From contig NZ_VEEP01000001.1 in assembly GCF_007678455.1 (NCBI RefSeq), forward strand, positions 620,001 through 684,000: a DNA stretch of 64,000 nucleotides. The letters are read 5' to 3'. How positions within the stretch are numbered: position 1 is the stretch's first letter; each line of letters begins with the position of its first letter. The stretch comes from Cytobacillus oceanisediminis 2691. Its GTDB lineage: Bacteria; Bacillota; Bacilli; Bacillales; Cytobacillaceae. Position numbers and translations under genes: made by a program. Positions 57,126 to 60,048 of the stretch are shown in pieces. The notes under the pieces were generated by a model that saw only the letters and a list, made by a program, of their open reading frames with translations, made no database searches and was not told the origin of the DNA.

Positions 57126-58028
57126 ATGCTGACAGGTATGCAAATCGCGGTTATCGGCGGTGATGCTAGACAGCTGGAGATTATTCGCAAGCTGACAGAG
57201 CTTGATGCAAAGCTTTCTTTAATAGGCTTCGAGCAGTTGGACCATGCTTTCACAGGTGCCTCAAAAGAAAAGATAGATGAAGTTGATTTTTCAGTACAGG
57301 ATGCTTTGATCCTGCCTGTTCCCGGAACTAGCCTGGAGGGTCAGGTCGAAACCATTTTCTCAAATGAAAGAGTTGTAATCATAAAAGAAATGCTTGAACG
57401 GACTCCGGAACACTGTAAGGTTTATTCTGGTATCAGCAACTCGTACTTGACGGGGATCGCCAGCCAGGCCAACCGCAAACTCGTACAGCTATTCTCCCGT
57501 GATGATGTCGCCATTTATAACTCGATTCCGACAGTGGAAGGAACGATCATGATGGCAATCCAGCACACGGATTTTACGATACATGGTTCCAATGTTTCTG
57601 TTCTGGGACTTGGCAGGGTCGGTATGAGTGTTGCGAGAACCTTCCATGCGCTTGGAGCAAAGGTTAAGGTAGGTGCCCGGAAAAGCGAGCATATTGCAAG
57701 GATTACTGAAATGGGATTAGAACCTTTCCTTTTATCAGACATAGGAAAGGCAGTTTCTGATAGCGATATTTGCATCAATACCATTCCTAACCAGATTGTT
57801 ACTGCTTCTGTCATTTCGAGGATGCCCGCCCATACCTTGATCATTGACCTTGCATCGAAACCAGGTGGAACGGATTTTCGCTATGCTGAAAAACGGGGAA
57901 TCAAGGCTTTGCTTGCGCCAGGTTTGCCGGGCATCGTAGCCCCAAAGACTGCTGGGCAAATTCTGGCGAATGTTCTTTCTCAGCTGCTTATGGAAGACTT
58001 TTCTAACCGAAAGGAGAAAGAAGTATGA
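57126..58028 (+). CDS. dpaA: Dipicolinate synthase subunit A (SpoVFA)
   Basis: Makes spore dipicolinic acid in the mother cell, using the product of DapA as substrate. I choose ATG 57126 (MLTGMQIAVIGGDARQLEII), with AAGGTGA upstream; the frame from 57072 is not family-like. 300 aa with two Rossmann elements: IAVIGGDAR near the start and VLGLGRVGMSVARTFHALGA in the middle, then LIIDLASKPGGTDFRYAEK and GLPGIVAPKTAGQILANVLS. It overlaps dpaB by 4 bp. Confidence 0.98.
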   Translation: MLTGMQIAVIGGDARQLEIIRKLTELDAKLSLIGFEQLDHAFTGASKEKIDEVDFSVQDALILPVPGTSLEGQVETIFSNERVVIIKEMLERTPEHCKVYSGISNSYLTGIASQANRKLVQLFSRDDVAIYNSIPTVEGTIMMAIQHTDFTIHGSNVSVLGLGRVGMSVARTFHALGAKVKVGARKSEHIARITEMGLEPFLLSDIGKAVSDSDICINTIPNQIVTASVISRMPAHTLIIDLASKPGGTDFRYAEKRGIKALLAPGLPGIVAPKTAGQILANVLSQLLMEDFSNRKEKEV

Positions 58029-58621
58029 GTTTACAAGGAAAAAAGATCGGATTTGGATTGACAGGTTCTCATTGTACGTATGATGCTGTTTTTCCCGAAA
58101 TTGAAAAATTAGTGAATGCAGGTGCAGAAGTTCTGCCTGTTGTCACCTTCACCGTAAAAAATACTGAAACACGTTTTGGAAAAGGGGAGGACTGGGTACA
58201 GCGGATTGAGGAGCTTACCGGCAATAAGGTGATCGATTCAATTGTGAAGGCAGAGCCTCTTGGGCCCAAAATCCCGCTGGATTGCATGGTCATTGCGCCT
58301 CTCACCGGAAACTCGATGAGCAAGTTTGCAAATGCCATGACTGATTCACCAGTTTTGATGGCTGCGAAAGCGACTTTAAGAAACCAAAAACCAGTAGTGC
58401 TCGGCATTTCCACGAACGATGCCTTGGGACTCAATGGCGTCAACCTGATGAGACTAATGGCAACCAAAAATATTTTCATGATTCCTTTTGGCCAGGATGA
58501 TCCGGTAAAAAAACCAAATTCAATGGTTGCCAGAATGGAGATGCTCTCCGAAACGGTTTTGGAGGCAATGGAAGGAAAGCAATTGCAGCCAGTTCTTGTT
58601 GAACGTTATAAGGATAACTAG
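58025..58621 (+). CDS. dpaB: Dipicolinate synthase subunit B (SpoVFB)
   Basis: Flavoprotein-like (HFCD-fold) subunit of dipicolinate synthase. 198 aa: KIGFGLTGSHCTYDAVFPEI near the start, the PxTxNSxxK-type motif in MVIAPLTGNSMSKFANAMTD, and PVVLGISTNDALGLNGVNLM. It is translationally coupled to dpaA. Its presence shows that the organism forms DPA-containing spores. Confidence 0.98.
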   Translation: MSLQGKKIGFGLTGSHCTYDAVFPEIEKLVNAGAEVLPVVTFTVKNTETRFGKGEDWVQRIEELTGNKVIDSIVKAEPLGPKIPLDCMVIAPLTGNSMSKFANAMTDSPVLMAAKATLRNQKPVVLGISTNDALGLNGVNLMRLMATKNIFMIPFGQDDPVKKPNSMVARMEMLSETVLEAMEGKQLQPVLVERYKDN

Positions 58622-58998
58622 GGAAAATCCAAGGAAGGATACCGTCAAATCAGCAGAAATCAAGATAAACGACCTGACTAGTCTAACTGGAAACGCTTTT
58701 CTCCGGCAGTGAAGCAAAATCTTTCTTTCCTTAATGATTGAATATGATAAAATATAGGATAATATACAAGGCGGTTTTTAAGACAAGTAAAAAATGTCTA
58801 GAATCTGCGCCTGGCCTGTTTTAACTCAGGAGAACGTCCCAAAGTACCATGCGAAAAGCTTTCGTACGGAGTGAGGATGGGTTTCTGGGCTGGCCTGGGC
58901 GCTTGCGCATTTCTTATAAGCCGCCGTTATACTTATGTTCAAACAACCGGCTTTTAACGGATATTAAAACGATAATGGCAGTGGAAGGGGAAACAGAT
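58622..58998 (+). promoter_or_regulatory. asd upstream region with a structured leader
   Basis: A 377-bp gap with no credible gene. An extended -10 element TGATAAAAT (58745-58753) may start transcription near 58760. A long-range stem follows: GCGCC and GGCC (58807-58811, 58813-58816) pair with GGCC and GGCGC (58892-58895, 58898-58902). It encloses a hairpin with CGAAA/TTTCG (58852-58864). Further down, AAGCCG/CGGCTT (58918-58923, 58948-58953) and CCGTTA/TAACGG (58924-58929, 58955-58960) cross and exclude each other. I do not recognise a lysine riboswitch, T-box or other known class. Confidence 0.5.
58745..58753 (+). promoter_or_regulatory. Candidate extended -10 promoter for asd
   Basis: TGA then TAAAAT (58748-58753), with another -10-like GATAAT at 58758-58763. 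The -35 region is weak. It lies about 250 bp upstream of asd, implying a long leader. Confidence 0.4.
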
Positions 58999-60048
58999 AT
59001 GTCAGAGAGAAAAGGTTACCGAGTAGCAGTAGTTGGAGCAACAGGAGCAGTTGGGCAGCAAATGATCCAAACGCTTGAAAACAGGGATTTTCCAGTTTCG
59101 GAACTATTACTGCTTTCTTCAGCAAGATCTGCTGGTACGAAGGTTCATTATAAAGGTAACGAAATAACAGTTCAGGAAGCAAAACCGGAAAGCTTTGAAG
59201 GAGTGGATATAGCTCTTTTCAGCGCAGGCGGCAGTGTATCGAAACAATTGGCTCCTGAGGCTGTCAAGCGCGGAGCAATCGTTGTTGATAACACAAGTGC
59301 CTTCAGGATGGAAGAAAATATTCCGCTGGTAGTACCAGAAGTTAATGAAGAAGATTTGCGCAATCATAATGGAATCATCGCTAATCCAAACTGCTCGACA
59401 ATCCAGATGGTCGTGGCACTGGAGCCGCTCCGCAAGAAATACGGCCTTGATAAGATCATCGTCTCAACCTACCAGGCAGTTTCTGGTGCAGGTGCAGCAG
59501 CCGTGGAAGAGATGAAGGAACAAACTAGGGCGATTCTGGATGGCAAAGAATATGAGCCAAAGATCCTTCCTGTTAAATCTGGAGAAAAGCACTACCAGAT
59601 TGCCTTCAATGCCATTCCGCAGATTGACACATTCGTTGAAAATGGGTTCACGTATGAAGAAATGAAAATGATCAATGAAACCAAGAAAATCATGCATATG
59701 CCTGAGCTTCAGGTTGCTGCTACTTGTGTGCGGCTCCCTGTCGGTACTGGCCATTCTGAATCAGTTTACATCGAAATTGGCGAAGGCGGAGTAGCCGCAT
59801 CTGAAGTGAAGGAATTGCTCGCAGATGCTCCAGGAGTTGTCCTTCAAGATAATCCGGACCAGCAGTTATATCCTATGCCTGCATTCTGTGTAGGAAAAAA
59901 CGATGTATTCGTTGGCCGAATAAGGAAGGACCTTGACAACGATAAAGGCTTCCATATGTGGGTAGTATCAGATAACCTGCTGAAAGGTGCTGCGTGGAAC
60001 TCTGTCCAGATTGCTGAAAGTCTTGTAAAACTCGGTCTTGTAAAATAA
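58999..60048 (+). CDS. asd: Aspartate-semialdehyde dehydrogenase
   Basis: NADPH-dependent enzyme that reduces aspartyl phosphate; branch point to lysine/DAP, threonine and methionine. ATG 58999 ([19 protein letters not shown]) has AAGGGG 8 bp upstream; the open frame further upstream is leader sequence. 349 aa. The NADP motif GATGAVG is at residues 13-19 and the catalytic Cys is C132 in NPNCSTIQM. The substrate loop is [17 protein letters not shown]. dapG follows. Confidence 0.98.

Follow-up and report, generated by a model that had tools for sequence, protein, structure and literature searches.

Interspersed repeats of the MITE-like and BOX-like kind are already known (PMC3049150, PMC2267715, PMC3733652). 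Bcr1 is listed among the bacterial MITEs (PMC3733652), and a title cited in PMC2267715 describes bcr1 as specific to the B. cereus group. The pneumococcal BOX elements are presented as interspersed, structured and modular; for BOX and RUP, inverted ends as well as duplications are described, SPRITE is placed near gene 3' ends, a repeat is reported to form a composite with T-box leaders, and BOX, RUP and SPRITE are described in the pneumococcus and in S. mitis (PMC3049150). REPs are given a length of 20-40 bp and a tag that reads GTAG or CGTC (PMC3733652). Bhal-1 of Bacillus halodurans, a 74-nt repeat of one genome, stands without a literature entry in a table of PMC2267715.

Here we examined the leader of the asd operon in a window of 64,000 nt, i.e. 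the whole stretch of DNA that was analysed. An earlier note had seen in this leader the layout of a switchable RNA and had named a new cis-regulatory RNA, a dispersed repeat and a sporulation-related small RNA as the options. With high confidence we consider the leader to contain an old copy of a dispersed repeat of about 123 nt, inserted in the loop of a native hairpin, and not to be a conserved switch. The neighbours are as the note had them, dpa genes on one side and aspartate pathway genes on the other; Pfam supports dpaA, a flavoprotein gene, asd and aspartokinase. The flavoprotein ORF (58025-58621, plus strand; Pfam Flavoprotein, PF02441) adjoins a DpaA_N (PF16924) protein and is assigned by position to dpaB, dipicolinate synthase subunit B. 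Downstream on the same strand is asd, aspartate-semialdehyde dehydrogenase (58999-60048; PF01118 and PF02774). The aspartokinase gene is dapG by position, and dapA would be next in order, as judged by position and by a reading of its translation. At 58745-58753 the plus strand reads TGATAAAAT, a predicted promoter element of the asd operon which, from its consensus, we take to be an extended -10. It was found in all 20 dpaB-asd intervals counted below; 58745-58767 is unique within the window and 58745-58769 is identical in the relative ISL-80. The element would fit an asd transcript starting near 58760. A promoter scan of 58500-59200, which needs a -35 region, returned a single site on the opposite strand against 1.0 expected and none on the asd strand. 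The ribosome-binding site of asd, GGAAGGGG (58983-58990, plus strand), is invariant in 10 aligned leaders of relatives lacking the insert. The stretch TGGAAACGCTTTTCT (58688-58702), which lies some 45 nt ahead of the asd -10, resembles a CcpA cre site by its consensus. The surrounding stretch is conserved in Mesobacillus, and several relatives have TGGAAATGC.

All four pairings which had been noted in the leader are present, as a direct reading of the sequence demonstrated. A closing GC stem is formed on the plus strand by GCGCCTGGCC (58807-58816) and GGCCTGGGCGC (58892-58902), and it encloses an apical hairpin at 58847-58869. Further downstream, two 6-bp pairings cross each other, AAGCCG (58918-58923) with CGGCTT (58948-58953) and CCGTTA (58924-58929) with TAACGG (58955-58960). 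One pairing had been missed. On the plus strand, GGCGGTTT (58770-58777) and AAGCCGCC (58918-58925) are the left and right arm of a native 5' UTR hairpin with 8 of 8 pairs, one of them G-U. This hairpin competes with the AAGCCG:CGGCTT pairing. The leader looked switchable because a native hairpin arm had been paired with a chance partner downstream. Neither the apical hairpin nor the crossing pairs are conserved; with any register and G-U allowed, crossing 6-bp pairs are possible in 5 of 19 intervals, and three of these five are the window, its near-identical relative G075 and ISL-80. The complete leader of 239 nt folds at -67.3 kcal/mol; shuffled sequences had a mean of -60.95 (z -1.43), and 19 of the 200 were at least as stable. 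The whole-leader fold is no better than chance, and its outer stem is explained by the repeat family described below. No Rfam family reached its gathering score anywhere in the window, and a known Rfam family is rejected for the leader. Two Rfam hits obtained for 58600-59100 at E up to 10 were both far under the gathering score. The observation of a structured leader was real; its cause is very probably ordinary, a repeat inserted in a 5' UTR hairpin.

The repeat became apparent when the dpaB-asd interval was compared with its own genome by BLAST. Besides itself, the interval had 30 matches (E up to 10). Ten of them begin at query position 263, i.e. 58884 of the window (best E 1.3e-4), the remainder was scattered. 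When up to 3 mismatches were tolerated, the right-end pattern GGCGCTTGCGCWTTTCTTA was present at 46 places in the genome vs 6 for a reversed control; for the left-end pattern the numbers were 49 vs 0. Left and right ends are spaced by 121-124 nt in 19 cases and by 243-246 nt in six more. This delimits a unit of about 123 nt, TGTCCAGCTCCAGCGCC...AAGGCGCTTGCGCTTTTC, often preceded by an A/T-rich extension of about 45 nt (GATAAGAAAG...CACTTnGAGAAT) which is absent from empty sites. With the same tolerance of up to 3 mismatches, a right end follows on the same strand at no more than 366 nt from 32 of the 49 left ends, whereas for the other 17 there is none within 4 kb. Candidate terminal inverted repeats are GATAAGAAAG at the left and CTTTTCTTATC-like letters at the right. 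The T-rich letters of the right end are in many cases present before insertion (at the L022 site, empty in G086, they read GCTTTTCTTAGTATAAT), therefore some of what looks conserved at this end belongs to the target. Copies also lie in tandem or inside one another; the form of about 243 nt consists of a second element inside the internal loop of a first one. Since members sit inside members at recurring points, the family seems to evolve by nesting. Four loci (L003, L014, L031, L159) have members which carry other members or unrelated modules at recurring hairpin points. When 21 copies of the window's genome were aligned, a single long hairpin emerged; of its 37 pairs, 10 have a change on both sides. 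Folded as DNA, the consensus had a z of -3.86, and none of 200 shuffles was as good. Like a MITE, the repeat is short, non-coding, dispersed and absent from orthologous empty sites.

Is the insert at asd a member of this family? A covariance model, R1, was built from the 21 copies with the asd copy left out. At E up to 10 it hit the window once, at 58795-58916 on the plus strand (model positions 1-123, 19.5 bits). The E-value was 0.0058 in 160,736 bases and, with filters off, 1.3e-5 in 379 bases, where the next best hit had 4.5 bits; after a short calibration these R1 E-values are rough. The right end of the asd copy also matches other genomic copies (best E 1.3e-4). The score is low because only the two ends align to R1; 64 interior bases are unaligned, and the asd copy lacks the canonical interior hairpin GAAGTC...GACTTC. 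Other copies likewise have replaced or nested interiors, and the interior at asd is unlike that of any other copy examined. Both sides of the long GC-rich stem align to stem columns of R1, and this stem, which exists as had been noted, is the closing stem of the repeat. From its position, the stretch 58778-58794 (plus strand) is a probable remnant of the A/T-rich 5' extension. The R1 match, together with the empty sites in relatives, supports the option of a dispersed repeat.

The empty sites were found by comparing 20 dpaB-asd intervals of the Mesobacillus clade. Duplicates of named loci (L121, L123, L126, L127, L129, L130, L132, L134 and L136) were left out of this count, as were L100, L106 and other genera. 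Ten intervals are empty, six are filled, three contain remnants and one lacks the hairpin. In an empty leader there is just a short hairpin, GGCGGTT...AACCGCC, e.g. GGCGGTTATTTCTTATAAACCGCC, downstream of the extended -10 region, which is conserved. In the filled ones, i.e. the window, G075, ISL-80, boroniphilus, G071 and G073, a copy sits in the hairpin loop. G077, G074 and G089 have remnant sites. In L046, which is placed closest to ISL-80 on the tree, hairpin and insert are both lost. R1 clearly recognised the filled siblings L044 (90.2 bits) and L122 (56.9 bits) and more weakly L124 (29.2 bits) and L039 (21.8 bits); G075 was outside the sources of this search. The remnant L133 (G089) scored 17.6 bits (E 0.022). 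The remnants L128 and L131 (G077, G074) had no R1 hit and were called by eye from right-end letters. R1 found no copy in the leaders of the ten empty intervals. Measured against the refuting condition of the note, the long stem and the enclosed hairpin, the latter present in the window as noted, are absent from 10 of the 20 close intervals; other intervals hold different repeat copies or remnants, and one is without the whole structured part. On a tree of dpaB and asd coding sequences (23 rows), presence and absence require at least four changes without L046 and five if L046 is scored as empty. Because the inserts differ in interior and left junction, the comparison favours several insertions or repeated turnover at this spot; one ancient insertion that was later lost several times would be a less favoured course. 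Two entries have Bacillaceae-like dpaB-asd loci at odds with their titles, L039 (Chryseobacterium sp. ISL-80; DpaB identity 100%) and L053 (Pseudomonas sp. ISL-84; DpaB identity 92%). Both are probably mislabelled or contaminated.

In the window the arms of the native hairpin can still form all their pairs, because the insert sits in the loop. Among the other filled and remnant sites, G075, ISL-80, boroniphilus and L131, where the arms read GGTGG/CCACC, keep 7 or 8 of the 8 pairs; L122, L133 and L128 keep 6. We give about even chances to the reading that this hairpin alone is functional, as a 5'-end stabiliser or a protein-binding site, and that the insert is irrelevant. Its helix is intact in the ten empty leaders (six pairs in 10 of 10, a seventh in 9 of the 9 with letters there), its arms are largely kept in most of the filled or remnant relatives, and several other genera have, as judged by eye, a GC-rich hairpin of unrelated sequence after the promoter. 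However, no pair of this helix has changed on both sides among the ten empty rows. The empty leaders have a second hairpin further downstream, for which 84.7% of cells are paired; of 500 shuffles, 134 reached the covariation score of the two helices combined. Also, the hairpin is deleted in L046 and damaged in L124. A functional hairpin is compatible with the insertion of a repeat and not opposed to it. A reasonable inference is a simple 5' stem-loop which, for example, may stabilise the mRNA.

Next to be weighed is a domesticated insert, i.e. a lineage-specific cis-regulatory RNA which would tune stability, termination or translation of the asd operon mRNA in the species group of the window. 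The insert is kept in the window's species, in G075 and in ISL-80, and its position is right for a leader. Its ends are better conserved than its interior: between window and ISL-80 they are 92% and 88% identical, the interior 73% with 5 gap positions in addition, and the stem base could be under selection. Yet the rest of the leader is equally kept (58745-58794, 100%; 58917-58998, 90%), therefore the insert ends, with few positions, are not unusual for this leader. Upstream of the -10 the identity is 81%, at third codon positions it is 79% for dpaB and 72% for asd. Nine of the ten closing-stem pairs are unchanged across the three leaders sharing the insert (window, G075, ISL-80), and one is broken in ISL-80. 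Against domestication, only one of the 53 pairs predicted for these leaders changed on both sides, and 8 of them cannot form in one or more rows; effectively, these are two independent sequences. L046, although nearest to ISL-80, has neither insert nor hairpin, and a terminator scan of 58500-59200 returned no terminator-like site. We consider this reading improbable, and the proposal of a new cis-regulatory RNA is not supported, the stems being neither conserved nor covarying across relatives. A new riboswitch for the aspartate pathway, which would bind a ligand and have downstream pairings that exclude each other, or a pseudoknot, can practically be dismissed: in spite of a position ahead of asd and an aspartokinase gene and of pairings which exist in the sequence, the window has no Rfam match, the fold energy is ordinary, 14 of the 20 related intervals are empty, with remnants or without hairpin, and crossing pairs are possible in 5 of 19 intervals.

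Insertion was also followed elsewhere in the window's genome. The joined flanks of nine copies were searched in five relatives; 19 of 59 matches, chosen as spanning both flanks, were aligned. None of the nine sites is filled in every relative, i.e. one or more relatives lack the repeat there. Some relatives are filled; at the L154 site in G081 the flank matches are 186 bases apart, with an R1 copy exactly between them. Insertions fall in T-rich stretches, and T-rich duplications of differing possible lengths were seen (TTTTCTTT on both sides of L025; TAA at L004). Terminator statistics were obtained for 30 of the 49 left-end loci. An intrinsic-terminator-like hairpin was present upstream on the same strand at 8 of 30 loci vs 0 of 30 downstream on either strand (Fisher p 0.0046); letter-shuffled upstream flanks had a mean of 0.2 and at most 1. 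Upstream on the opposite strand there were 4 such hairpins, each at a site which also has a same-strand one.

How widespread is the family? Within the family, R1 matched in 192 of 193 genomes (E up to 0.001), and none of the 25 genera was without a match. In a sample of 299 genomes of the order, 212 had matches, and these represent 82 of 116 genera (E up to 1e-6); the two samples overlap. Copy numbers are lower bounds because few candidates were scored per genome (at most 18 for the family, 11 for the order). Copy L008 was compared by blastn (E up to 1e-5) with 72,556 plasmid and 50,697 phage records and matched none of them, and carriage on plasmids or phages is rejected at this sensitivity. 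Nine loci, most of them with copies, had no Rfam match to the repeat; only glmS and T-box were found, outside the copies. A second regulated 5' UTR contains one full copy, which follows a T-box leader (Rfam RF00230) and precedes a putative hisS, identified by eye (L023:1085-1320 and L008:1411-1533, the same locus of the window's genome). In L016 a repeat copy (1397-1519) precedes a glmS ribozyme (1687-1856) by some 170 nt. At L172, the genome's only Y1_Tnp match has a different, GGGACGGTTCTTCTGCTCCC-like repeat beside it. An origin of the REP/RAYT type was rejected: neither a copy nor the ends of the present repeat are in this 3.3-kb locus. A broader reading is possible and, in our estimate, rather doubtful, i.e. 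that this is an undescribed, order-wide mobile repeat which moves in one orientation into T-tracts after terminators or into T-rich loops, with no clear inverted ends or recognisable transposase. As part of it we would entertain, with the same reserve, a possibly hairpin-guided mechanism and an asd insertion which became a stable extension of a 5' UTR hairpin.

For the asd leader, we infer that a repeat copy, accompanied by its A/T-rich 5' extension, entered the native hairpin (GGCGGTT...AACCGCC) at its T-rich loop, just downstream of the asd promoter, and that its interior has since decayed. The asd operon would be read through the insert as a lengthened 5' UTR. As the arms still pair, promoter, hairpin base and ribosome-binding site would be undisturbed. 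In the best reading, the insert is a transcribed relic of a mobile MITE-like repeat which is tolerated in a hairpin loop, presumably with no regulatory effect. This removes a false riboswitch candidate before asd and demonstrates that insertion of a repeat can imitate a switchable leader. Copies in any 5' UTR can be mistaken for new regulatory RNAs, and this structured repeat, found neither in Rfam nor in the literature searched, is very abundant. The linkage of insertions to terminators makes the mode of movement testable from empty and filled sites.

The literature searched, in which subscription journals are thinly covered, contained no description of the repeat, including a text search with stretches of it, and within these limits the family appears to be unnamed. 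A text match with one stretch was a REP of Citrobacter koseri with 13 letters shared, and another with the same stretch was a paper on a human eye disease. The comparison with known systems is by description. REP/BIME sequences, which go with RAYT (Y1) transposases, are, like the present repeat, short palindromic repeats in many intergenic places. Bhal-1 is also a stem-loop repeat of a Bacillaceae genome. Unlike the inverted ends of BOX and RUP, those assigned to the present repeat are provisional. It resembles BOX, RUP and SPRITE in being interspersed and structured; its copies are nested and in tandem, and one lies beside a T-box leader. With bcr1 and the repeats of the B. cereus group it has in common that it is short, non-coding and dispersed.
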